From: Catenuloplanes atrovinosus
Lineage (GTDB): Bacteria > Actinomycetota > Actinomycetes > Mycobacteriales > Micromonosporaceae
Assembly (NCBI RefSeq): GCF_031458235.1
Contig: NZ_JAVDYB010000001.1
Span: 4,299,001 to 4,363,000 of the forward strand
DNA: 64,000 nucleotides
Direction: 5' to 3'
Position numbers and translations under genes: made by a program. This document shows, in pieces, positions 1 to 10,654 of the stretch; within the stretch, counting starts at the first letter, position 1, and each line of letters opens with the position of its first letter. The notes under the pieces were generated by a model that did not search any database, was not told the origin of the DNA, and worked only from the letters and a program-made list of their open reading frames with translations.

Positions 1-553
1 GCAGCCCGATCGGCGGCCAGATCGTCATCAGCGTGCCCGCGAACCCGGCGACCGCCACGGTCTGCCGCAGCACCTCCAGGCCGAACATGACGACCTCGTT
101 CGGGGTGATGTCCGCGGCCTGCGACGCCAGCCGCAGCCGGTCCTGGTGCGCCGGCTCCTCGAAGTAGCGCAGCCCGATCAGCCGGTTGACCCGCAGGCTC
201 AGCCCGGACTGCACCCGCAGCGTGACCGCGCGCTGCACCCGGGCGCCCAGGTACATGGACACCTCGCCGATGACCAGCACGGCGCCGCCGGTGAGGGCGG
301 CGCCGAGCGCGAGCAGCAGCACCGGTACGGCACCGGGCGTACCGGCGGCGAGCCGGTCGATGAGCAGCTTCATCAGCCAGGCGGCGACCGGCGCGGCGCC
401 GCCGGCCAGCAGCGCGAGCGCGGCCAGCGCCGCGTACCCGCCGGGTGCCGCGCGGAGCCCGATCAGCAGCGATTGCCGGGCGATCCGCCAGCGCTGCCGC
501 GCCGGGAGGGACGCCGAATCCCCGGTGTCACCGGCCGCGATGACGACGGTCAC
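1..553 (-). CDS. ABC exporter, membrane-domain part (cut by window edge)
   Basis: The first 184 codons of an ABC-type exporter are visible; the ATP-binding domain would lie beyond the left edge. The protein begins with a short hydrophilic stretch and goes straight into the transmembrane domain, with long Ala/Leu/Val-rich segments separated by a loop. There is no N-terminal C39 peptidase domain, so this exporter cannot itself cleave a leader. The GTG start at 553 overlaps the TGA of the thioredoxin-like gene (GTGA), so the two are translationally coupled. As last visible gene of an operon headed by a Cys-rich peptide, it is the likely exporter of that peptide (inference). Confident as an ABC exporter membrane domain; the substrate is unproven. 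Confidence 0.75.
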   Translation of the reverse strand, partial: MTVVIAAGDTGDSASLPARQRWRIARQSLLIGLRAAPGGYAALAALALLAGGAAPVAAWLMKLLIDRLAAGTPGAVPVLLLALGAALTGGAVLVIGEVSMYLGARVQRAVTLRVQSGLSLRVNRLIGLRYFEEPAHQDRLRLASQAADITPNEVVMFGLEVLRQTVAVAGFAGTLMTIWPPIGL

Positions 554-1065
554 GCGTGCGCCCCGGCGAGCTGGTCGAGCGCCAGACCGGACCGGGTGAT
601 GACCGCGTCGGCGACGGTGAACACGCGCGGGTAGCCGTCGACGCCGCCGAACGCGTCGCCGATCGGGCCGCCCAGATCGGCGCGGCTGACCAGCGCCCAC
701 GGCACCCGGGCCGCGACCTCCGCGGTCGCCCGGTCGTCCCCGGCCACGAACAGGACCAGCCGCTCGCCGGGCACGGGTGCGCCGGACGCCAGCTCGTCGA
801 TCGTCACCTCGCACGGCGGGCAGCCGGCGGAGACGAACGCCACCAGGCTGCGGCCGTCCGCGAGGTCCCGGTCGGTGAGCGGCGCGCCGGTCGTGGTGCG
901 GGCCGTGAACGCGCCGATCCGGCGGCCGGGCGGCGTCAGCGACAGCGACGGGCCCGGGGTGGCCGGCCGGTCCCGCAGGTGCCGGATCACGGCCGCGGTG
1001 AGGCTCAGGTTGAGCAGCGTCAGGGTCAGGGTGACGATCAGTCCGGCGAGCATCAACCACGTCAT
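550..1065 (-). CDS. MauD/TlpA-like thioredoxin-fold protein, membrane-anchored
   Basis: This 171-residue protein has an N-terminal membrane anchor (about residues 3-28) followed by a thioredoxin-like domain on the outer face. The redox motif is GCPPC within FVSAGCPPCEV (about residues 79-89), as in MauD/TlpA proteins that reduce or isomerise disulfides of exported proteins. The start ATG overlaps the stop of the MauE-like gene (ATGA), and its stop overlaps the ABC exporter start. MauD and MauE are together needed to build the disulfide-rich methylamine dehydrogenase light chain. Here the likely client is the ten-cysteine peptide at the head of the operon (inference). Confidence 0.8.
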   Translation of the reverse strand: MTWLMLAGLIVTLTLTLLNLSLTAAVIRHLRDRPATPGPSLSLTPPGRRIGAFTARTTTGAPLTDRDLADGRSLVAFVSAGCPPCEVTIDELASGAPVPGERLVLFVAGDDRATAEVAARVPWALVSRADLGGPIGDAFGGVDGYPRVFTVADAVITRSGLALDQLAGAHA

Positions 1066-1604
1066 GGCAGGTCCCGTCTCGGGTGGGTGAGGGCGAACCG
1101 CAGCTCGCGCGGGAAGGACAGCGCCGCGGCGGCCAGGGCGGCGCAGGAGAGCAGCAGGCCACCGGCGACCGGGCCGGGCGTGGCCGCGGCGGCGGTGGAC
1201 GCGGTGGCGCCGAGCGCGCAGATCAGCACCAGGATCGCGTTGCGGATCAGCTCGGCCCGGCCGATCGGACCTGCGTCACCGCCGAAGCAGTTGCAGCGCA
1301 CCTCGTGACCGGCCCGGCGCGCGGCCAGCACGGCCAGCGAGATCCCGGTCAGCAGCAGGCCGCCCAGGGCCAGGCCGGCGACCGCGGTGGCCGGCACCGC
1401 CACCAGGACCAGCACCGCGGCCTCGGCGGCGACGACGAGCGCGGCGACCGCGGTCCGGGCCTGATACGGCAACCAGGTGAACCCGGCCAGCGAGGCGCGG
1501 AACTCCCGCCACCGCTCGTGCCCGCTCACCTTGCCGATGATCGCCAGCGCCATCACGAAGCCGATCACGCCACGGCAGACGAGTTCTACTGAGGACATCG
1601 ACAC
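1062..1604 (-). CDS. MauE/DoxX-like redox-associated membrane protein
   Basis: A 180-residue membrane protein with about four hydrophobic helices and the CNCFGGD motif (about residues 103-109) typical of actinobacterial MauE-like proteins, whose Cys pair is thought to take part in transmembrane dithiol transfer. It lies second in the operon, about 56 bp after the Cys-rich peptide gene, and overlaps the thioredoxin-like gene by 4 bp. In methylamine-using bacteria MauE works with MauD during maturation of a six-disulfide subunit. No methylamine dehydrogenase heavy chain or tryptophylquinone maturation gene is visible in this window, so a role in peptide disulfide formation is more likely. The family call is secure and the role is inferred. 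Confidence 0.8.
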   Translation of the reverse strand: MSMSSVELVCRGVIGFVMALAIIGKVSGHERWREFRASLAGFTWLPYQARTAVAALVVAAEAAVLVLVAVPATAVAGLALGGLLLTGISLAVLAARRAGHEVRCNCFGGDAGPIGRAELIRNAILVLICALGATASTAAAATPGPVAGGLLLSCAALAAAALSFPRELRFALTHPRRDLP

Positions 1605-1660
1605 CTCCCGGGGGCCGGCCGGTGCGGGTGCACCGGCCGGCCGTCACGCACTCCGTCGGG

Positions 1661-1885
1661 TCAGCAGCTTCCGACGGCGTAGAGATAGGTGCAGGAGCTG
1701 GGGATACAGCCACAGTCACAGCTGTAGACCCGCGAGCAGTTGGCGTACCAGAGGGTGCCGCCACTGCAGATGTAGTAGTACGCATTCCCACAGGGGCCGG
1801 GGCAGATCGTGCAGGCCCCCGCCTCCTCCTGCGGGAGGAGCCGGCCGAGCAGCCGGCTACCGAGGTTGGTCAGAACTGTGGACAT
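1661..1885 (-). CDS. Cys-rich exported peptide precursor with GA-type leader (candidate RiPP/bacteriocin)
   Basis: A 74-residue peptide. Residues 1-24 form a cysteine-free, amphipathic leader ending EEAGA, which resembles the GG/GA cleavage site of double-glycine leaders. Residues 25-74 contain ten cysteines (25, 28, 32, 40, 50, 56, 58, 60, 65, 74), enough for five disulfides, plus many Tyr, Ser and Gly. The leader has no hydrophobic core, so Sec export is unlikely. The ATG at 1885 is preceded by GAAGGGAG at good spacing; an upstream in-frame extension lacks such a site. It heads an operon with MauE-like, MauD-like and ABC exporter genes. I do not recognise the peptide family; the run CSGGTL..C faintly recalls methylamine dehydrogenase light chain but cannot be relied on. 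Confidence 0.7.
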   Translation of the reverse strand: MSTVLTNLGSRLLGRLLPQEEAGACTICPGPCGNAYYYICSGGTLWYANCSRVYSCDCGCIPSSCTYLYAVGSC

Positions 1886-2174: not shown

Positions 2175-3401
2175 TCACGTCATGACGCCGTCCAGGCGCC
2201 CGGTCCATCCGTCCAGTGCAAGGCCGGGGTCGGTGGCCAGCACGCCGGCCAGCAGTGTCGCGTACACGTCGCGGAAGTCGACGGTGTGCTTGAGGTCGCC
2301 GTCGTCGAGGTCGGTCAGGCTGGGCTGCTCGCCGTGCAGGCCGCCGCGCACGCCGTCGCCCAGCAGGAAGACATCCGACGCGGTGCCGTGATCGGTGCCG
2401 TCGGAGGCGTTGGCCCGCACCCGCCGGCCGAACTCCGAGTAGACCGCGATCACGACGCCCCGGCCGGTCATCCGTTCCGCGAACGCGGCCAGCGGCCCGT
2501 CCAGCCGGGCCAGCTGCGCCCGCTGGGTGTCCTTGCTGTCGGCGTGCAGGTCGAACCCGCCCAGCGACACGGAGTAGACGCGGGTCGCCGCGCCCGCCTC
2601 GATGCACCGGGCCACCAGCGCGAGCTGCCGGTCCAGCGGGGGCGCGTCGCCGCCGGTCGCCGTGGCGGGCGCGTCGGGCTCGGTCTCGTCGCCGGCCGGC
2701 GCCCCGTCGTCGACCTGGGCCATCAGGTCCTGGACCCGCATCAGGTCGGCGAAGCAGGCCGCCGCGCGGGCCTGCGCCGCGGACTCGCCGGCCGCCGGGG
2801 TGCCGAACGCCGTCAGCACGCCGGGGCCGGCCGCCTTCGGCAGCGTCAACGTTCCGCCGGGCACGGTGGCGCCGGCGGAGGTGGCGCCGGCCAGCAGTGG
2901 AGGCAGCACCGGCTCGAACGACACCGCCAGGCGCGGATCGCCGCTCGTGGTGTCCAGCCAGCGGCCGAGCCACCCGGTGGTGCCCGGCCGGTCCGGCTGG
3001 GCGGTCTGCCAGATGTCCATCGACTGGAAGTGGCTGCGGTTCGGCCTCGGATAGCCGACCCCGCGGACGACCGCCAGCCGGCCGCTGCCGTACAGCCGGT
3101 GCAGGCCGGGCATTCCGGGGTTGAACGCGAGGCCGTCGCCCAGGTCGAGCAGTTCCTCCGCCGGGTACGTCATGCCGGGCCGGGCGGCCGCGTAGGCCGG
3201 ATCCGCGTACGGGATGACCGTGTTCAAGCCGTCGTTGCCGCCGTACAGGGTGACCAGGACCAGAGTCTTCGCCAGCGGATCGCGCGCGGGCGCGGTGGCC
3301 AGCACGTCCCGCAGGCCGACCGCGGTGGCGCCGGCCGCCAGGGCCGCGCCGCCGGTGATCCCGCCGGCGATGAGCAGCCGGCGCCGGGTGAGGGTGTTCA
3401 T
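2175..3401 (-). CDS. DUF1501 family secreted protein (Tat substrate)
   Basis: A 408-residue protein with an N-terminal twin-arginine signal (RRRLLIAGG at residues 6-14, then an Ala/Gly-rich hydrophobic stretch). The body has DUF1501 hallmarks: VLVTLYGGNDGLNTVIPY near residue 50, an NRSHFQSMD block, a YSEFGRR block and DHGTASDVFLLG, an alkaline-phosphatase/sulfatase-like fold. The family's reaction is not established. It lies 12 bp downstream of a DUF1800 gene; the two are a very common pair and probably act together outside the membrane. The ATG sits directly before the Tat motif. Confident at family level only. Confidence 0.9.
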   Translation of the reverse strand: MNTLTRRRLLIAGGITGGAALAAGATAVGLRDVLATAPARDPLAKTLVLVTLYGGNDGLNTVIPYADPAYAAARPGMTYPAEELLDLGDGLAFNPGMPGLHRLYGSGRLAVVRGVGYPRPNRSHFQSMDIWQTAQPDRPGTTGWLGRWLDTTSGDPRLAVSFEPVLPPLLAGATSAGATVPGGTLTLPKAAGPGVLTAFGTPAAGESAAQARAAACFADLMRVQDLMAQVDDGAPAGDETEPDAPATATGGDAPPLDRQLALVARCIEAGAATRVYSVSLGGFDLHADSKDTQRAQLARLDGPLAAFAERMTGRGVVIAVYSEFGRRVRANASDGTDHGTASDVFLLGDGVRGGLHGEQPSLTDLDDGDLKHTVDFRDVYATLLAGVLATDPGLALDGWTGRLDGVMT

Positions 3402-3413
3402 GTCGGACTCCTG

Positions 3414-4661
3414 TCAGTGAACGGCGTACTCCGGGCTGGCCAGGCCGAGCGCCAGCAGCCGGCGGGGGTCGTCGACGTCGCGCAGCCCGGCGTACGTACG
3501 GTCGGTCCAGGTGTCGACGGCCAGCAGCGTGGCCAGCTGTTCGGCGCCGTCCAGACCCTCCGCCGCGGCCGGGGCGAGCGCGGCGAGCTGCTGACCGGCC
3601 CGCAGCCGGGCCACGGTGCCGGACGTGGTGAGCCAGGCGGTCCCCTCCGGCCAGCCGCCGACCGACGGCGGCGCGAACGGCACCTGACCCAGCGTCCGCA
3701 GCACCGCGGGCAGCCGCGCGCCGGTCCGCTCATCGACCGGAATCCCGAGCTGGCGGACCGCCCCGATGAGCCACTCCACCGGCTGTTTCACCAGCGTGCC
3801 CGCGGTCGCCGCGAACTCCGGCGCGCGGCACATCGCCCGGATCAGCGCGGTGGTGTCCCGGCCGGCCGCCAACACCGGCGACGGTACGGGCGACGTGGTC
3901 CCGGCGTAGCGGGCCCAGAGCCGGCCGGCCAGGAAGGGCACGTGCGCCTCGTGCCGGACGAGCAGGTCGGCGAAGGAGTCGACGTCGAAGGTGCCGGTCC
4001 GGCCGAGCAGCGTGACCGCGCCGTCGTCGTGCCGCTGCGGCACCAGGCGGGCGGTGCCGGAGCGGTGGTCCACCTGCCAGCCGGTGAGCACCCGCGCCGC
4101 CGCCTTGACGTCCGCCTCCGAGTAGGCGCCCAGCCCCAGGGTGAACAGCTCCATGACCTCGCGGGCCAGGTTCTCGTTCGGCGCCTTCCGGGTGTTCCGC
4201 TGCCCGTCCAGCCAGATGATCAGGGCGGGGTCGCGCAGCATCGCGCGGATGAGCGGGCCGGTGTCGCCGGCGCCGTACCGCCGGAAGGTCTGCTGCTGGG
4301 CCAGCATCAGGTGGGCGGAACGCACCTTGCGCGCGCTGGTCGCCCAGTGCCCGTGCCAGAAGAACGTCAGCTTCTCGGCCGATCCGCCGCCGGCCATCCG
4401 CGCCAGCCACCAGCGTGTCGCCGTCGCGACCTGCGCCCGCTGCTCCTGCCGGGCGCGCTGCCGCTGCTCCCGGGCGGCGCCGGCGTCGAGCATCGCGTAC
4501 GGGTCGACGTCCAGCTCCGGCGGGCGCACCTCGGCGGCGGGCCGCAGCAGGCCGTCGAGTGTGGCCTCGTAGCCGGCCGCCGTGGCGGCGTCGATCTCGG
4601 CGGCGGTCGGCCCGAACGTAAGACGGCGGAGCAGATGGGAGATCGCACGACGGTCGGCCAT
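3414..4661 (-). CDS. DUF1800 family protein
   Basis: A 415-residue protein opening with AISHLLRRLTFGPTAAEI, the typical DUF1800 start, and containing FFWHGHWATS (about residue 99) and NENLAREVMELFTLG (about residue 162), which are conserved family blocks. No clear signal peptide is seen, so it may be carried out by its partner or act inside. It is the upstream gene of a two-gene unit with the DUF1501 protein. The function of the pair is unknown; in other bacteria it often accompanies cell-surface or polymer-related genes. Family assignment is secure. Confidence 0.9.
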   Translation of the reverse strand: MADRRAISHLLRRLTFGPTAAEIDAATAAGYEATLDGLLRPAAEVRPPELDVDPYAMLDAGAAREQRQRARQEQRAQVATATRWWLARMAGGGSAEKLTFFWHGHWATSARKVRSAHLMLAQQQTFRRYGAGDTGPLIRAMLRDPALIIWLDGQRNTRKAPNENLAREVMELFTLGLGAYSEADVKAAARVLTGWQVDHRSGTARLVPQRHDDGAVTLLGRTGTFDVDSFADLLVRHEAHVPFLAGRLWARYAGTTSPVPSPVLAAGRDTTALIRAMCRAPEFAATAGTLVKQPVEWLIGAVRQLGIPVDERTGARLPAVLRTLGQVPFAPPSVGGWPEGTAWLTTSGTVARLRAGQQLAALAPAAAEGLDGAEQLATLLAVDTWTDRTYAGLRDVDDPRRLLALGLASPEYAVH

Positions 4662-4701
4662 GGCCGCACGCTAGGCCGCCGGTGTAAGGATCAGGTAAGC
4701 C

Positions 4702-6042
4702 TCACGTTCGGCCGGGGTACGGCAGCGTCATCGTGAACCTGGCACCGCCCTCGGGCGCATGGCCCGCCTCGATGGCGCCGTCCAGCCGGGCCACCAGGCG
4801 CGCGGCCAGGGCCAGGCCCAGCCCGCTGCCGGTCTTGCGCTCGTGCCGGTACCGCTGTTGCAGCGCACCGCGCTGGAACGCCACGGTGAGATCCTCGTCC
4901 GTGAAGCCGGGGCCGCCGTCGCGGACCTCCACCACGCCACCGGCCCCGCCGGCACGGACGGCGAGGATCAGCGGCGCACCGGCCGGCAGCACCCGCAGCG
5001 CGTTCTCGCACAGGCCGTCGATCACCTGCCGGAGCCGAGCCGGATCGGTCTCCACCGTGACCGGGCCGGCCGGTAGCTCCACGGAGAGCAGCGGGCCGTC
5101 CGGGCCGCAGCGCGGCGCCCACGCCTGCCCGGCCTGGGCGACGAGCTCGATCAGATCGACCGGCTGCGGGTGCACCGGCAGGTCCGCCGCCTCCAGCCGG
5201 GAAAGCACCAGCAGGTCCGAGATCAGCCGGTCCAGGCGGTCGGCCTCGGACCGCATGAGCGCACCGGCCGCGGGTACGCCGTCGGCCGCCAGCACACCGT
5301 CGGCCAGCGCCTCCGCGTACCCGCGGATGGTCGCCAGCGGGGTGCGCAGCTCGTGCGAGACGGACAGCAGGAACTCGCGCTCCCGGCCCTCGCTGATGTG
5401 CAGCGCGGCACCGAGCTGGTTGAGCGCCGTCGCCAGCTCCGCGGCCTCGGCCGGCGGCCGGACCGCCAGCCGCACCGAGCGATCTCCGGCCGACAGACGT
5501 GCCGCCGCCAGCGCCGCCTGCCGCAGCGGTCGGGCCACCACGTACGCCAGCAGCGCGCCCGCGCCGGCACCGCCGGCCAGACCGGCGAGCAGGGCGATCC
5601 ACACCCCGCCCAGCACCCGCGCGTCGGCTCCGCGCACGGCCGCGCGGGTCAGCACCACGCCGCTGTCGTTGCCGCTGAGCGGGCGCCCGGAGATCAGCAC
5701 CGGCTCGCCCGCGACGACGTCCCGCGTGTCCACCGCCTCGCCGGCCGCGATCCGCGCGATCACCCGCTCGGGCAGCCCCGGCCGGTCCGCGGCACCGCGC
5801 CGGACGAGGTAGACGGCGATACCCTGCTCGCGCAGCCGGGCGACGATCCGTTGCCGGGCCACCGGCCGCTCGGTGGCCAGCAACTCGACCGCCAGCGCGG
5901 ACTTCTCCGCCAGATCGACGCGGGCCGCCTCGTCGGCGGAGCGCACGGCGAGGGGCAGCGCCACCAGCGCGGTGACGAGCACGCAGACCACCGCGGTGGC
6001 CGCGGTGACCAGGATGGCGCGGCCGACGAAGGTCCTAGGCAT
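4702..6042 (-). CDS. Sensor histidine kinase (OmpR-system partner)
   Basis: A 446-residue membrane kinase. One TM helix near residues 9-32 and another near 143-168 flank an extracytoplasmic sensor of about 110 residues. A HAMP linker is followed by the dimerisation/phosphoacceptor box SVSHELRTPLATIRGYAEAL (about residues 230-250, His in SHELRTP). The HATPase domain has NALRV as a degenerate N box, DGGPGF (G1) and GSGLGLALA (G2). It overlaps the upstream response regulator by 8 bp, so the two are co-translated. The ligand is unknown. Confidence 0.92.
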   Translation of the reverse strand: MPRTFVGRAILVTAATAVVCVLVTALVALPLAVRSADEAARVDLAEKSALAVELLATERPVARQRIVARLREQGIAVYLVRRGAADRPGLPERVIARIAAGEAVDTRDVVAGEPVLISGRPLSGNDSGVVLTRAAVRGADARVLGGVWIALLAGLAGGAGAGALLAYVVARPLRQAALAAARLSAGDRSVRLAVRPPAEAAELATALNQLGAALHISEGREREFLLSVSHELRTPLATIRGYAEALADGVLAADGVPAAGALMRSEADRLDRLISDLLVLSRLEAADLPVHPQPVDLIELVAQAGQAWAPRCGPDGPLLSVELPAGPVTVETDPARLRQVIDGLCENALRVLPAGAPLILAVRAGGAGGVVEVRDGGPGFTDEDLTVAFQRGALQQRYRHERKTGSGLGLALAARLVARLDGAIEAGHAPEGGARFTMTLPYPGRT

Positions 6043-6715
6043 CGGCGGTGTAGCCGACGCCGCGGACCGTCCGGATCACGCCGGCCGCGTCGCCGAGCTT
6101 CGCGCGGACCTGGGCGACGTGCACGTCGACCGTGCGGGTGCCGTCGGGCGAGGCGTAGCCCCAGACCCCGGCCAGCAGTTCCTCGCGGGTGAACACCCGG
6201 CCGGGCCGGCGCAGCAGGTGACCGAGCAGGTCGAACTCGGTCTGCGTCAGCGACAGCGGGCGGCCGGCCACGGTCACCAGACGCCGCTGCGGGTCCAGCG
6301 CCACCGGCCCCAGCGTGCGGACCGCCGCGCCGTCGCCGGGCCCGGCCGCGCGCCGCACCAGCGCGCGCACCCGTGCGACCAGCTCGCGCGGGCTGAACGG
6401 CTTGGTCACGTAGTCGTCGCCGCCGAGTTCGAGCCCGAGGATTCGGTCGACCTCGTCGTTGCGGGCGGTCAGGAACACCACCGGCGTCCAGTCACCGTCC
6501 GCGCGCAGCCGCCGGCAGATGTCGGTGCCGTCCATCCCGGGCAGCGCGATGTCCAGCACGCAGGCCACCGGCCGCAGCCTCCGGGCGGCCGCCAGGCCGG
6601 CCGGGCCGTCCCGCTCCACGTGCACCCCGAAGCCGTCGCGGCTCAGGTAGAGCCGGACGAGGTCGGCGATCGGCCGCTCGTCCTCCACGACGAGGACCAG
6701 TCCCTTCCCGCTCAC
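6035..6715 (-). CDS. OmpR/PhoB-family response regulator
   Basis: A 226-residue regulator with an N-terminal receiver (acidic pair near residues 11-12, phospho-acceptor Asp in VACVLDIALPGMDG near residue 55, switch residues T and K in TARND and TKPFSPREL) and a C-terminal winged-helix domain (TQTEFDLLGHLLRRPGRVF..VWGY). It precedes the histidine kinase at 4702-6042 with an 8-bp overlap and is its cognate regulator. Targets are not evident; the neighbouring DUF1800/DUF1501 unit downstream is one possibility. Confidence 0.93.
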   Translation of the reverse strand: MSGKGLVLVVEDERPIADLVRLYLSRDGFGVHVERDGPAGLAAARRLRPVACVLDIALPGMDGTDICRRLRADGDWTPVVFLTARNDEVDRILGLELGGDDYVTKPFSPRELVARVRALVRRAAGPGDGAAVRTLGPVALDPQRRLVTVAGRPLSLTQTEFDLLGHLLRRPGRVFTREELLAGVWGYASPDGTRTVDVHVAQVRAKLGDAAGVIRTVRGVGYTADA

Positions 6716-6791
6716 CGCCCCATTGTGCCGTCACGGACGCCGGCCGGACAGCCGGGCAACGACGGCACCCCGGCCGAGTGGCGGGTCGCGG

Positions 6792-7034
6792 ATGGAGTGC
6801 GCCGCGCACGTGGCCGTGCACCTGCTCGCGGCCGGCCGGCGGACGCTCGCCCGGACGTTCGCCACCCGCGGCATCGACCGTTTCGCGGCGCCGGCCACCT
6901 GGCACACCGGCCCGCACGGTGTGCCACTGCTCGACCGCACGCTGGTCCGGCCGGCGTGCCGCGTCATCCGCCGCATCCCGGCCGGCGACCACGCCATCGT
7001 GCTGGCCACCCCGCTCACCGGCGCGACCCGGATC
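6792..7034 (+). pseudogene. Flavin reductase domain relic (both ends missing)
   Basis: Translating this plus-strand frame gives residues that follow the second half of the HpaC/ActVB-type flavin reductase domain: HVAVHLLAAG, LARTFATRGIDRFA, VPLLDRTLV, CRVIRRIPAGDHAIVLATPL. In intact proteins these blocks read roughly FAVNVL..LA..FA..G.DRF...PLLDGAL..CRV....AGDH.IVLG. About 80 N-terminal residues with the flavin-binding part are missing and the frame loses similarity after 7034. I therefore read it as a decayed gene. The match is from memory of the family, so moderate confidence. Confidence 0.55.
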
Positions 7035-7200
7035 GCCGGGAACCGAACGGGTTCGCGGTACGACTACCCACGCGGAGACCGGCACGTGACGCGGGTCTCC
7101 GCCGACGCCACGGTGGTCGTGGGGAATCCGGGCGGGTCGGCTGCCCCCGCCCGGAGGCCGGCGCCACCGCGCCGGCGACACCCAAGACGAGGAAACGCCG

Positions 7201-8625
7201 ATGTCCGTCACCCCCGAGGTCACCGCGCCCGCTCCGGCCTCGACCCCCGTCCCCCGCCGCGCCGGCGGCGGCTCCGCGTTCGGTGCGCTGCTGCTGCGAC
7301 TGCACTTCTACGCCGGCATCATGATCGCGCCGTTCCTGGTGGTCGCGGCCGTCACCGGCCTGCTGTTCGTCTCCACGCCCACGCTCGACCGGATCGTCTA
7401 CGCCGACGAACTGCTGGTCGACGAGGCCGGCGGTGACACCGTCCCGGTGTCGCAGCAGCTCGCCGCCGCACGGGCGGCACACCCCGAGGGCACCATCACC
7501 GGGGTACGGGTGAAGGGCGGCGAGTGGACGACCCACGTCGACTTCGCGATGCCGGAGCTGGCCGCGGCCGAGAAGGTGCACACCGTCTACGTGGACCCGT
7601 ACACCGGGGCGGTGACCGGGCAGTTGACCACCCAGTTCGGCTGGACGCCGCTGCAGGCCTGGCTGGACGTGCTGCACCGCGACCTGCACCTCGGCACGGT
7701 CGGCAACCTCTACTCGGAGCTGGCCGCGAGCTGGCTGTGGGTGATCGCGCTGGGCGGCATCGTGCTCTGGTGGCGCCGCCGCCGTACCGTGCGGAAGCTC
7801 TTCGCTCCTGAACTGTCCGCCCGGAAGGGCGTGCGCCGGACCCGGGGCTGGCACGGCGCGGTCGGCGCGTGGCTGCTCGTCGGCCTGCTCGGCCTGTCCG
7901 CCACCGGGCTGACCTGGTCGAACTACGCCGGCGCGAACTTCGGCCTGCTGATCGACCAGATCAAGGGCGGCACACCGTACGTCTCGACCGCGCTCACCGG
8001 TGCCCCGCCCGGCGAGGCCGGCGGCCACCACGGCGGCGGCGCCGCACCGGCCACCGGCGCCGACCCGGACGGCATCGACACCGCGCTCGCGGTCGCCCGG
8101 GACAACGGCCTGGACGGGCCGGTCTCGATCATCCCGCCGGCCGACGCCGCCACGGCGTGGCAGGTCACGCAGATCGACACGCAGTTCCCGGAGCGGTTGG
8201 ACAGCGTCGCGGTCGACCCCACCACGAGCACGGTCACCGACCGGGTCGACTTCGCCGACTGGCCGGTCACCGCCAAGCTCACCAACTGGGGCATCAACGC
8301 CCACATGGGACTGCTGTTCGGGTTGGCCAACCAGATCCTGCTGGCCGCGCTCGCGATCGGCCTGCTCTGCGTCATCCTCTGGGGCTACCGCATGTGGTGG
8401 CAGCGCCGGCCCACCCGCGACGGCCGTCGCGCGCTGGTCGGCACCGCCCCGGCCCGGGTGGACTGGCGAGCGGTCCCGGCCTGGGCGATCGTGGCCGGCA
8501 TCCTGGTGGTGTTCGCGATCGGCTGGGCGCTGCCGCTGTTCGGCATCCCGCTCGCCGCGTTCATCGTCGTCGACGCGATCGTGACCACGGTCCGCGAGCG
8601 TCGCGGCGGCCCGGTGGGTGGCTGA
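7201..8625 (+). CDS. PepSY-associated TM helix protein
   Basis: A 474-residue membrane protein. The first TM helix (LLRLHFYAGIMIAPFLVVAAVTG split around residues 33-58) starts with the RLHFYAG motif of PepSY_TM proteins. Further helices are at LWVIALGGIVLWWRRRR (about 179-195), GAWLLVGLLGLSATGLTWS, an ILLAALAIGLL helix and a C-terminal pair. Two PepSY-like external segments precede and follow, and a His/Gly-rich loop (GGHHGGG near residue 277) might bind metal. The conserved WLDVLHRDLHLG motif (about 158-169) is present. Members occur near iron/copper uptake and ferric-reductase genes, but the exact role is undefined. GAGGAA lies before the ATG. Confidence 0.85.
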   Translation: MSVTPEVTAPAPASTPVPRRAGGGSAFGALLLRLHFYAGIMIAPFLVVAAVTGLLFVSTPTLDRIVYADELLVDEAGGDTVPVSQQLAAARAAHPEGTITGVRVKGGEWTTHVDFAMPELAAAEKVHTVYVDPYTGAVTGQLTTQFGWTPLQAWLDVLHRDLHLGTVGNLYSELAASWLWVIALGGIVLWWRRRRTVRKLFAPELSARKGVRRTRGWHGAVGAWLLVGLLGLSATGLTWSNYAGANFGLLIDQIKGGTPYVSTALTGAPPGEAGGHHGGGAAPATGADPDGIDTALAVARDNGLDGPVSIIPPADAATAWQVTQIDTQFPERLDSVAVDPTTSTVTDRVDFADWPVTAKLTNWGINAHMGLLFGLANQILLAALAIGLLCVILWGYRMWWQRRPTRDGRRALVGTAPARVDWRAVPAWAIVAGILVVFAIGWALPLFGIPLAAFIVVDAIVTTVRERRGGPVGG

Positions 8626-8633
8626 GCCGCCTC

Positions 8634-8939
8634 CTACCAGGACGCCTTGCGTACCCCCGGAAGCTCGCCGCGCAGAGCCAGCTCGCGGAACCGGACCCGG
8701 GACAGCCCGAAACGGCTGAGCACGCCGCGCGGCCGGCCGTCGATCTGGTCGCGGTCGCGCCGCCGGCTCGGGCTGGAGTCGCGCGGCAACGACGCGAGGG
8801 TACGCACGGCGGCCGCGCGCACGCCCGGGTCGGTGTCCGGCGCGGAGATCGCCCGCTTCAGCGCGGCGCGCCGCTCCGCGTAGCGCGCGACCAGCGCGGC
8901 CCGGCGCCTCTCCCGCTCGATGAGACCGCGGCGGGCCAT
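8634..8939 (-). CDS. rpsN: 30S ribosomal protein S14, zinc-free (C-) paralogue
   Basis: A 101-residue S14 of the long, zinc-independent type: no CxxC motifs, with the typical [17 protein letters not shown] block followed by [17 protein letters not shown] and the terminal KASW. Such copies replace the zinc-ribbon S14 on the ribosome when zinc is scarce, freeing zinc. It is the last gene of an L28-L33-S14 operon; its ATG touches the TGA of the L33 gene. The divergent COG0523 GTPase and the Zur-like box point to zinc control. Confidence 0.95.
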
Positions 8940-9106
8940 CAGCGCTCCTCGCGGAAGTCGACGTGCCGGCGCGCCATCGGGTCGTACTTGCGCAGGACCA
9001 GCCGGTCCGGGTCGTTACGCCGGTTCTTGCGGGTCACGTACGTGTAGCCGGTCCCCGCGGTGCTGCGCAGTTTGATCACGGGGCGGACCTCATTGCTCCT
9101 GGCCAT
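8939..9106 (-). CDS. rpmG: 50S ribosomal protein L33, zinc-free paralogue
   Basis: A 55-residue L33: [20 protein letters not shown], then [16 protein letters not shown] and [10 protein letters not shown], ending FREER. The zinc-binding cysteines of the C+ form are absent, so this is the stand-by version made under zinc limitation. The ATG at 9104-9106 overlaps the L28 stop (ATGA) and its TGA overlaps the S14 start, giving a tightly coupled three-gene operon. Translated by eye from the sequence. Confidence 0.95.
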
Positions 9107-9339
9107 CAGAGCCGCACTCCCCTGGCGCGCAACCGGGCGACGACCGAGTCGATGCCGTCCCGGTCGATGATCTTCAGCCCGGTGGTGCTGACGGTCAGGC
9201 GGACGGTGGTGCCGTCCGCGAGCCGGAAGCGGCGGCGCTGCACGTTGGGAATCCAGCGGCGCCGGGTGCGGCGGTGGGAGTGCGACACGGCGTTGCCGAA
9301 GCTCGGCTTCGCGCCGGTCACGTCACAGATGGAGGACAC
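9106..9339 (-). CDS. rpmB: 50S ribosomal protein L28, stand-by paralogue
   Basis: A 77-residue L28 beginning [16 protein letters not shown] with the downstream [18 protein letters not shown] block. A single Cys remains, so the four-Cys zinc site is lost. It is first of the L28-L33-S14 operon, whose promoter must lie in the 9340-9397 interval that also holds the Zur-like box. In other actinobacteria the same set often includes S18 as well; no S18 is present here. Confidence 0.95.
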
Positions 9340-9352
9340 GACCCGACTCTAA

Positions 9353-9374
9353 ACGAAAATCGTTGTCATTATCA
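9353..9374. promoter_or_regulatory. Fur/Zur-type operator between ribosomal operon and COG0523 gene
   Basis: The 19-mer GAAAATCGTTGTCATTATC (9355-9373) matches 14 of 19 positions of the classical Fur-family box GATAATGATAATCATTATC and is the most AT-rich stretch nearby. It lies between the divergent L28 operon and the COG0523 GTPase, exactly where Zur acts in mycobacteria and streptomycetes. Zur identity is inferred from the genes controlled; the zur gene itself is not in the window. Confidence 0.75.
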
Positions 9375-9397
9375 ACTCGATGCGCCAGGATGGCCGG

Positions 9398-10654
9398 ATG
9401 AGTGCCGATCCGATCACCTCCGTCGCCTCCCCGGCCGTGGACCACCGGCCCGCCGTCACCGTGCTGTCCGGCTTCTCCGCCGGGGCCGTCCAGGCCGCGA
9501 CCCGCGCCCTGCTCGTCGCGGACGACAGCCTCGTCGCGATCCGCCATGACCTCACCGGGCTGCGGCACGGGCTGGTCGGCCGTACGGTCGAGACCGCCGC
9601 CGCGGTCCTCGAGCACACCGCGGTCGACCTGGCGCACGGCTGCGTGTCCTGCACGCTGCGCGAGGACGTGCTGCCCACGCTGGTCCGGCTGGCCCGCGAG
9701 CGCCCCGGCCGCGATCTGCTGCTGGCCCTCCCGCCCGCGGTCGAGCCCGAGACCGTCGCGTCGGCCTGCGCGCACACCCTGGTCGACGGCGCGCCGGTGA
9801 CCGGCAGCGTGCGGTTCGACAGCTACGTCGCCGTCGTGGACGCGGACCGCTTCCTGGACGACCTGGCCAGCCCGGACGACCTGCGCGACCGCGGCCTGCA
9901 CGCGGCCGACGACGACCATCGGGCGGTCGCCGAGGTGGTCGCGCACCAGGTCGAGTTCAGCGACACCGTCATCCTCTGGAGCCGCCCCGGCACCGACGCG
10001 CTGGAACTCGACCGGCTCGACGCGCTCGTGCACCGCCTCGCCCCGTGGGCGGTCCGCGTCCCCACCGGCACCGCACCGAGCCTGGACTGCACCGGGCTGG
10101 CCGCGCGCGTCCGCCGCACCGGGCGCCACGACCCGCGGCGCCCCGGCGTACTCGGGCTCGCGCTCGAGGGCCGTCCGATCGCCGTGCACGACCCCGACGG
10201 CGGCCACGGCGTCACGTCCATCGCCTTCGATGCCCGCCGGCCGTTCCACCCGAGGCGGCTGCACGACGCGCTGGAGGAGCTGACCGAGCATGCGCTGCGC
10301 GGGCGCGGCCAGCTCTGGATCGCCAGCCAGCCCGACGTGGCGGTGGCGTTCGAGTTCGCCGGCGGCGGCGTCAGCCTGGGCAGCCTCGGCTACTGGCTGG
10401 CCGCCCTGCCCGCCGGCCGGTGGACCGAGACCAGCGACGACCGGCGCCTCGCCGCCGACCTCGACTGGGACCCGTACTACGGCGACCGGCGCACCGCGCT
10501 CGCGCTGATCGGCCTGCACCTCGACCACGACGCCGTCACCGCGCTGCTGCACCGCTGCCTGCTCACCGACGCGGAACTGGCCGACGGATTCGACACCTGG
10601 CACGACCTGGACGACCCGTTCGCCGACTGCTTCCCGTTGACCGGCGACGATTGA
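9398..10654 (+). CDS. COG0523 (CobW/MRF-like) GTPase, zinc-limitation associated
   Basis: A 418-residue G3E-family protein. It begins PAVTVLSGFSAGAVQAATRA where intact G3E GTPases have a GxxGxGK P-loop, so the Walker A is degenerate. The zinc-ligand motif GCVSCTLRED (CxxC type of the C[IVTL]xC motif) is intact near residue 85. The C-terminal half has the CobW-C-like WIASQPDVAVAFEFAGG block. In mycobacteria the orthologous MRF recruits a hibernation factor to zinc-free ribosomes, and the arrangement here (divergent from L28-L33-S14) is the same. Start at 9398 has AGGA upstream; an ATG at 9380 is also possible. Confidence 0.85.
   Translation: MSADPITSVASPAVDHRPAVTVLSGFSAGAVQAATRALLVADDSLVAIRHDLTGLRHGLVGRTVETAAAVLEHTAVDLAHGCVSCTLREDVLPTLVRLARERPGRDLLLALPPAVEPETVASACAHTLVDGAPVTGSVRFDSYVAVVDADRFLDDLASPDDLRDRGLHAADDDHRAVAEVVAHQVEFSDTVILWSRPGTDALELDRLDALVHRLAPWAVRVPTGTAPSLDCTGLAARVRRTGRHDPRRPGVLGLALEGRPIAVHDPDGGHGVTSIAFDARRPFHPRRLHDALEELTEHALRGRGQLWIASQPDVAVAFEFAGGGVSLGSLGYWLAALPAGRWTETSDDRRLAADLDWDPYYGDRRTALALIGLHLDHDAVTALLHRCLLTDAELADGFDTWHDLDDPFADCFPLTGDD

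Follow-up and report, generated by a model that had tools for sequence, protein, structure and literature searches.

Candidate peptides linked to MauE are already in print. The decRiPPter study of 2020 lists three candidate families of ribosomally synthesised and post-translationally modified peptides (RiPPs) in Streptomyces that contain mauE, one of them also with mauD; their predicted precursors hold at least eight Cys and were proposed to be modified by these proteins, and the filter applied required a transporter, a peptidase and a regulator (PMC7794033). A role of MauE in forming or reshuffling disulfides has been the subject of speculation for the Cys-rich subunit of methylamine dehydrogenase. 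Here we describe a locus of this kind at the left end of a 64,000-nucleotide stretch of the Catenuloplanes atrovinosus genome (contig NZ_JAVDYB010000001.1, positions 4,299,001 to 4,363,000; hereafter the window), in which the gene for a 74-residue peptide is followed by genes for a MauE-like protein, a thioredoxin-like protein, an ABC exporter and an S26 signal peptidase-like protein. We hold with good confidence that this is a self-contained export and maturation cassette for a disulfide-rich secreted peptide, and that it belongs to a large actinobacterial family; the observed basis is gene content, active-site residues, co-occurrence and the anatomy of leader and core.

DecRiPPter is the closest precedent that we found, and a sequence-only reading of this stretch, which did not recognise the class, has to be amended in the light of its mauE-containing families (PMC7794033). 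The likeness lies in the pairing of a mauE homologue with a neighbouring precursor of eight or more Cys; the window peptide has ten, and its MauE neighbour matches Pfam MauE at E=1.5e-20. Compared by description only, the present system goes beyond those families in its shared leader, its S26 partner, its wide distribution and its scattered precursors: in the accessible text no leader motif, protease type or product is described for them, they are confined to Streptomyces, and the main text contains neither 'signal peptidase' nor 'peptidase S26' (0 occurrences; PMC7794033). In a Streptomyces-like genus, too, MauE has neighbouring peptides with this kind of leader. Searches of the open-licence PMC literature turned up neither the family-wide leader nor the dedicated signal peptidase, and neither the distribution nor the hub-type arsenals described below.

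Other described systems resemble the locus in part. With the mauE/mauD pair it has in common a MauE membrane protein, a membrane thioredoxin-fold partner (MauD-like by analogy) and a Cys-rich exported substrate, but here the substrate is a small peptide with a leader, and an S26 protease and an ABC exporter go with it. The gene lists of the neighbourhoods, read as lists and not Pfam-scanned, showed no genes for methylamine dehydrogenase, and a PF02975 search found nothing in the genome itself, but control genomes likewise gave nothing. Actifensin, which comes from an actinobacterium, has all six Cys oxidised and belongs to a variable family with several copies in some genomes (PMC6989792). Actifensin and the laterosporulins are likewise small exported Cys-rich peptides; however, actifensin keeps to one six-Cys framework, in an operon with other ABC genes and a subtilisin-like protease (PMC6989792), whereas the present system has many frameworks and the partners MauE, thioredoxin and S26. 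The window core, with its ten Cys, does not follow the six-Cys defensin framework, and no defensin is among the PDB matches of the peptide profile at E<=5. The staphylococcal TMcin cluster, described in a preprint, also joins an exported peptide, a dedicated protease, a CxxC oxidoreductase and an ABC transporter, but has one disulfide, a transmembrane precursor, an S2P-type metalloprotease and a DsbA-type oxidoreductase (PMC13252029). Cinnamycin-type lanthipeptides have a leader end of the A-x-A type, a postulated type I signal peptidase site (PMC12837462); they differ in their lanthionine chemistry and in using a housekeeping peptidase, whereas here a signal peptidase-like gene lies within the cassette.

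The features of the locus are the following:

1661..1885, minus strand: precursor peptide gene, 74 aa, ATG start, 10 Cys in the final 50 residues
1814..1885, minus strand: leader, residues 1-24, MSTVLTNLGSRLLGRLLPQEEAGA, amphipathic, with an A-x-A end as putative cleavage site
1664..1813, minus strand: core, 50 residues, Cys spacing 2-3-7-9-5-1-1-4-8
1613..1642, minus strand: 13-pair hairpin in the gap that separates the peptide stop from the MauE start
1062..1604, minus strand: MauE-like membrane protein, 180 aa, Pfam MauE E=1.5e-20, C104-x-C106-F-G
550..1065, minus strand: membrane-anchored thioredoxin-fold protein (ResA/CcmG/TlpA-like), 171 aa, C82-P-P-C85
1..553, extending left to genome C1:4297652, minus strand: ABC exporter, permease-ATPase, 633 aa, Pfam ABC_tran
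outside the window, C1:4297236-4297652 (L009:14237-14653), minus strand: S26 signal peptidase I-like protein, 138 aa, assigned by Pfam and NCBIfam

The sequence-only reading had proposed a four-gene operon with 4-bp overlaps. The peptide, MauE-like, thioredoxin-like and ABC exporter genes are all present, which confirms that observation, but the operon comprises five genes: the genome is a single 8.9-Mb contig, so the left flank beyond the window can be read, and an open reading frame (ORF) in that flank, starting 1.35 kb left of window position 1, encodes the S26-like protein as the fifth. This is the separate protease that had been predicted past the left edge. The 4-bp overlaps hold for MauE/thioredoxin (1062-1065) and thioredoxin/ABC (550-553), and a gap of 56 bp separates the peptide gene from the MauE gene; the S26 start overlaps the ABC stop by 1 bp. 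As the earlier reading had it, the exporter lacks a C39 domain: read whole, its 633 residues give no C39 peptidase match at E<=0.1, and the exporter thus does not have the N-terminal C39 domain of double-glycine bacteriocin systems. The S26 protein matches Pfam Peptidase_S26 (1.3e-17) and NCBIfam sigpep_I_bact (63.3 bits, cut-off 47), and its Ser32 and Lys70, which we take to be the catalytic dyad of signal peptidase I, are invariant in 28/28 aligned proteins. The alignments of the machinery proteins, here and below, cover chosen members (29 thioredoxin, 21 MauE, 28 S26).

The same genes recur near related peptides in many genomes. Searching 300 genomes of the same family with the window peptide alone gave relatives in 29, its own included, and a hidden Markov model (HMM) search of the order gave peptide matches in 47 of 397 genomes. 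We read all 37 places from the family search and 60 regions chosen from the order search, at most 20 kb each, with partner HMMs seeded by the window genes and, in the case of S26 and the regulator, by L121 and L043; 96 of the 97 loci gave a peptide ORF, and L140, which gave none, was excluded. All four partners (MauE, thioredoxin, ABC and S26) lie within 5 kb of the peptide in 62 of these 96 loci, the window's own included, so that the neighbourhood search suggested earlier has come out in favour of the cassette. Counted singly, ABC is found within that distance in 77 loci, S26 in 74, thioredoxin in 73 and MauE in 63, and the matches lying farther than 5 kb from the peptide in the same loci number one for MauE, one for thioredoxin and two for S26. 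Because of this recurrence in many genomes and the small number of such genes farther away, the grouping is more than chance; some of the loci stem from the same or closely related genomes and are not independent events. A BTAD-type regulator match (Pfam BTAD 1.6e-29 in the one member checked) lies within 5 kb in 52 of the 96 loci. In a sub-branch (L053, L071, L127, L149 and L156-L158) the BTAD-type match stands between the ABC and peptide genes on the same strand.

Across the 397 genomes of the order, taken as identical in both searches, 45 have both a peptide match (E<=0.01) and a strong MauE-like match (E<=1e-20), 2 the peptide alone, 12 MauE alone and 338 neither. The Fisher p of about 1e-45 is indicative only, since each related genome enters the count on its own, the two profiles derive from loci of the system itself, some of the peptide matches are marginal, and the first look scored 15 (peptide) or 8 (MauE) candidates per genome. 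The peptide matches in G458 and G599 are marginal, do not cover the initial 12 or 13 positions of the profile and come without a strong MauE. These data bear directly on whether the peptide is a chance small ORF in an operon that serves some other substrate. Short Cys-rich ORFs can arise in GC-rich DNA, and this one belongs to no database family; however, homologues with the same leader stand beside the same genes in many genomes, peptide and MauE co-occur, and close peptide pairs (e.g., L059/L062 and L043/L045) show purifying selection at the codon level. The chance explanation is already refuted on the present evidence, with a residual probability close to nil.

In a second genus, probably Streptomyces, the MauE profile finds a match (E<=0.001) in 20 of 81 genomes, and MauE, thioredoxin and ABC stand together at 16 loci in 14 of the 81; a related peptide lies beside 15 of the 16, and all five genes are present in each of the 12 loci fetched in full. 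In a phylum-wide sample of 391 genomes, 6 gave a strong MauE-like match, counting that of the window, and four others of these showed no peptide in their short loci. In the corresponding peptide search (396 genomes) there were four matches outside the window's genome, all marginal (E 0.003 to 0.006); the Streptomyces-like peptides were missed by that search and found through MauE only. The sole match of a contig scan, L040 from a Lachnospiraceae metagenome-assembled genome, was a 2100-aa ORF and was rejected. Within the window's genus, 3 of the 5 genomes tested have a strong MauE match, and the two others among them carry peptides quite different from the window's. The window exporter shares 76 percent identity with its L041 counterpart (581 residues; a different genus) and 49 percent with its L165 counterpart (the same genus); within 10 kb, a simple gene caller finds cassette genes and generic ABC ATPases alone in common between the window and L041 or L042. 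Given the exporter identities, the sharing of the cassette only and the presence in three of five genomes of the genus, the distribution fits horizontal or patchy inheritance.

Variant loci were also seen. In L171/L218 and L244, MauE, thioredoxin and S26 genes have in their vicinity a 4-Cys peptide that matches weakly and has LPKAxGKA in its leader; there is no ABC gene within 20 kb in L218, nor in the only about 3.5 kb of L244, and these loci are perhaps a second branch with a different exporter. L073 (G222) holds two different peptide cassettes, at 4011-5900 and 6701-10142, convergent and about 1 kb apart. In L121 and L130 (genus g48) three peptides surround a thioredoxin-S26 pair that is convergent with an ABC-thioredoxin-MauE set, and a WLVPxTTAAAC-type leader end is common to 2 of the 3.

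Translation of the precursor gene agrees with the earlier description of a 74-residue peptide with a Cys-free leader ending EEAGA and ten Cys in the last 50 residues: residues 1-24 are free of Cys and end QEEAGA, and residues 25-74 carry all ten. The predicted mass of the core is 5310.130 Da reduced and 5300.051 Da with five disulfides. In an alignment of 26 peptides A22, A24, C56 and C74 are invariant, so that the alanines of the proposed site are conserved in 26/26, and M1, D10, L13, C25, C40 and C60 are nearly so; the window peptide deviates at position 10, with Ser instead of Asp. Across the family the leader consensus is DRLL..VP..AxA. Under a strict rule 128 of 132 peptides have AxA ahead of the first Cys (a weak peptide in L130 at 8110, with 3 Cys, was dropped before the counts); three of the four exceptions have a wrongly extended start in the ORF list and one has V-x-A. 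This leader end has the A-x-A pattern of type I signal peptidase (S26) substrates, making it the putative cleavage site.

A conserved Sec signal peptide would have spoken against a dedicated leader. As judged from a simple hydropathy heuristic, the leader appears amphipathic, without a Sec-type hydrophobic core: its longest uncharged run has a family median of 6 and a maximum of 10, and its best 10-residue hydropathy is 0.95 in the window peptide, with a family median of 1.18 and values of at least 2.0 in 4 of 128.

The cores, in turn, are very diverse, with 131 distinct sequences and 98 Cys spacings among the 132 peptides, lengths from 23 to 65 residues and mostly 6 to 10 Cys. The number of Cys is even in 123 of the 132; with one representative per cluster, it is even in 60 of 65 (binomial p 2e-13; single-linkage clusters, the largest of 47 peptides). 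The expectation that the Cys spacing is conserved holds for close relatives, being identical in L041, where 15 of 40 non-Cys residues are in common with the window core, and nearly so in L042, where one loop is two residues longer; it fails across the wider family. A conserved leader joined to a variable core, with maturation genes linked to the precursor, is the arrangement of RiPP precursors.

Family-based annotation misses these peptides, because none of 26 tested against Pfam, NCBIfam and PHROGs has a convincing family match; for the window peptide there is none in Pfam or NCBIfam at E<=1 and none in PHROGs at E<=0.1. The PDB matches of the peptide profile, among them those to spider toxins (best E 0.066), and single-member matches to zf_Rg (E 0.26) and OxalOxredbeta (E 0.18), were treated as chance. 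Positive selection on the cores was considered and rejected: pooled dN/dS over 953 pairs is 0.75 for the leader and 1.03 for the core. We make no arms-race claim, because the pooled pairs come mostly from one large single-linkage cluster with high synonymous divergence, and because the close pairs, among those listed, are mostly below 1, i.e., under purifying selection in leader and core alike, with exceptions.

Both proteins of the proposed redox pair have the residues expected of them. The motif of the window MauE-like protein is CNCFGG, and CxCFG is invariant in 21/21 aligned members; the MauE profile found no relative in the PDB (best E 0.31). The thioredoxin-like protein, with the motif GCPPC, has a weak Pfam match to Redoxin (E=0.044), and its AlphaFold2 model (mean predicted confidence, pLDDT, 92.6) shows a thioredoxin fold preceded by an N-terminal helix (2-32). 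Both assignments of the earlier reading stand. CxxC and Pro146, presumably the cis-Pro of thioredoxins, are invariant in 29/29 aligned proteins, 15 of which match Pfam AhpC-TSA and 11 Thioredoxin. The closest structures to the model are Geobacter thioredoxin, CcmG and ResA, and the profile matches 96 PDB sequences, including DsbF (3ios) and MPT53 (1lu4). From the thioredoxin, MauE and S26 proteins and the even Cys numbers we infer that the peptide acquires disulfides and loses its leader, and the earlier reading of a disulfide-rich peptide class served by a MauE/MauD-like pair is supported.

Alternatively, the pair may install or protect a cofactor or metal site rather than plain disulfides, the peptide being a mini MauA-like protein or a relative of the quinohemoprotein small subunit. 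Several cores hold a CSGG motif resembling MauA, and in methylamine dehydrogenase a subunit of this type is indeed the client of MauE and MauD (PMC7794033). However, the 26-peptide profile finds no methylamine dehydrogenase chain in the PDB at E<=5, none of the 26 peptides matches PF02975 at E<=1, the five-gene unit lacks a MauG- or radical SAM-type gene, and the even Cys numbers favour disulfides, all of which makes this explanation very improbable. Kinship with MauA, the methylamine dehydrogenase light chain, which this motif had prompted, is unsupported by the PDB or Pfam profiles and was set aside.

The 56-nt gap behind the peptide gene folds into a strong stem-loop of 13 pairs (-39.6 kcal/mol, z -4.4) without a terminator-type T-run. 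There are 57 same-strand gaps between a peptide gene and the next machinery gene, 55 of which are at least 30 nt and were scored; 42 of the 55 have z below -2, as do 12 of 22 stretches downstream of orphan peptides, compared with 1 of 31 machinery gaps, 9 of 115 stretches upstream of peptides and 9 of 115 random windows. The hairpin is perhaps a partial terminator or a protector of the mRNA, giving precursor in excess of the machinery.

Taking these elements together as a disulfide-forming export cassette, we infer transport, the order of steps, the redox direction, the cleavage site and the disulfide pairing as follows. The precursor would be made in the cytoplasm with its 24-residue amphipathic leader, at a level that the hairpin may raise by keeping peptide mRNA above machinery mRNA. 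The dedicated ABC exporter would recognise the leader and move the reduced precursor across the membrane, outside which the membrane-anchored thioredoxin-like protein, through its CxxC, would form or reshuffle disulfides, held in its working redox state by the CxC of MauE. Finally, the signal peptidase-like protease would cut past A-x-A and free a peptide of 50 residues carrying as many as five disulfides.

Several observations weigh against this picture. The evidence is genomic, and export, oxidation and activity are predictions from it. ResA and CcmG are reductants and are among the best matches of the thioredoxin-like protein, so the redox direction could be either. The HMM searches prefer leaders with AxA, and the conservation of AxA is therefore partly by construction. 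An odd number of Cys occurs in 9 of the 132 cores, no BTAD match is present at the window locus in the 18 kb covered by L077, and 12 of the 57 genomes with a strong MauE have no detected peptide among the 15 first-look candidates scored per genome. Of the 45 co-occurrences several are marginal, e.g., G190, G320 and G568 (E 0.004 to 0.007). Moreover, at 19 of the 96 loci every one of the four partners is missing from the 5 kb around the peptide. Ten of these are from genome G004, whose machinery sits elsewhere; the other nine (L056, L058, L063, L066, L069, L070, L076, L132 and L163, with L076 and L132 near contig ends) belong to G083, G075, G007, G201, G220, G330 and G226, all of which except G007 carry machinery at another locus (L217, L222, L062+L075, L157, L130 and L162). 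For G007 just a MauE-like gene was found. Finally, no immunity gene was recognised, although no systematic search for one was made; for a bacteriocin this would be odd.

Because the cores are diverse, the distribution is patchy and BTAD-type matches lie near about half of the loci, the product is most likely competitive or signalling, of the specialised-metabolite type. That the oxidised peptide is a bacteriocin proper, killing or inhibiting competing bacteria (or fungi) as actifensin and the laterosporulins do, is a tentative reading that falls just short of an even chance. The small size, the Cys content, the number of distinct cores and spacings, a median core net charge of +2 and the BTAD-type matches are all in keeping with it, and several peptide copies occur in some genomes, as do actifensin homologues (PMC6989792). 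Against this, the window core has a net charge of 0, the profile matches, at the thresholds applied, no actifensin structure and no antimicrobial family, selection in the close pairs, among those listed, is mostly purifying and not diversifying, and the lack of a recognised immunity gene must be counted here too. The last two points speak instead for a developmental or signalling peptide, or a surface or spore component of the producer, and so does the restriction of the system, in our samples, to a few actinobacterial families, which we presume to be filamentous. We nevertheless regard this second explanation as rather unlikely, since the patchy occurrence of strong MauE matches within the genus and the diverse cores favour a dispensable accessory product.

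Whatever the product does, some species carry far more peptides than cassettes. With a dedicated HMM (E<=0.01), three of the five genomes of genus g5 gave 35 (G083), 20 (G004) and 14 (G066) peptide matches, and the other two (G046 and G097) gave zero. In G004 we read 15 peptide genes at 11 places without MauE, thioredoxin or S26 alongside; at one place, L113, ABC genes lie 2.8 kb off and are perhaps unrelated. The same genome has one complete MauE-thioredoxin-ABC-S26 set, with no peptide within its 20 kb. For G083 we read 25 of the 35 (22 ORFs in 20 fetched regions and three elsewhere), and its machinery consists of the complete set L217 and a second set, L218, that lacks ABC. Two ORFs of the 14 matches were read in G066. 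A strong MauE match is lacking in G046; that of G097 lies in a variant locus where no ABC gene is in view. The loci of the three genomes with peptide matches include L110-L120, L215, L217 and L260-L279.

We lean slightly towards reading these data as a new, widespread actinobacterial class of secreted peptides, defined by the DRLL..VP..AxA leader and the MauE-thioredoxin-ABC-signal peptidase machine. In some species the machine would act as a hub, with one or a few copies maturing some 14 to 35 very different disulfide-rich peptides from genes scattered over the chromosome. The leader would then be a portable tag letting one system fold almost any Cys-rich core. Prochlorosin precursor genes are scattered too. 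There, as here, one maturation machine serves many precursor genes per genome (PMC10783134), but it is the lanthionine enzyme ProcM, whereas here it is a redox, export and protease machine. If this is right, these genomes hold a largely untouched library of evolved cross-linked mini-proteins together with their folding and export machines, which would offer a bacterial system for making disulfide-rich peptides; MauE, named for methylamine metabolism, would gain a wider role, and it could be tested directly if unrelated Cys-rich cores fold oxidatively with no guidance beyond a leader.

Beyond the S26 gene lies the end of a convergent operon, judged by eye to be of the sugar-ABC type. Just upstream of the cassette, window 2175-4661 holds two minus-strand genes (408 and 415 aa) that we take to resemble a DUF1501/DUF1800 pair; this pair was not found near L041 or L042. 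Further on, window 4702-8625 carries a sensor kinase and a response regulator, divergent from a 474-aa membrane protein that is presumably PepSY-like.

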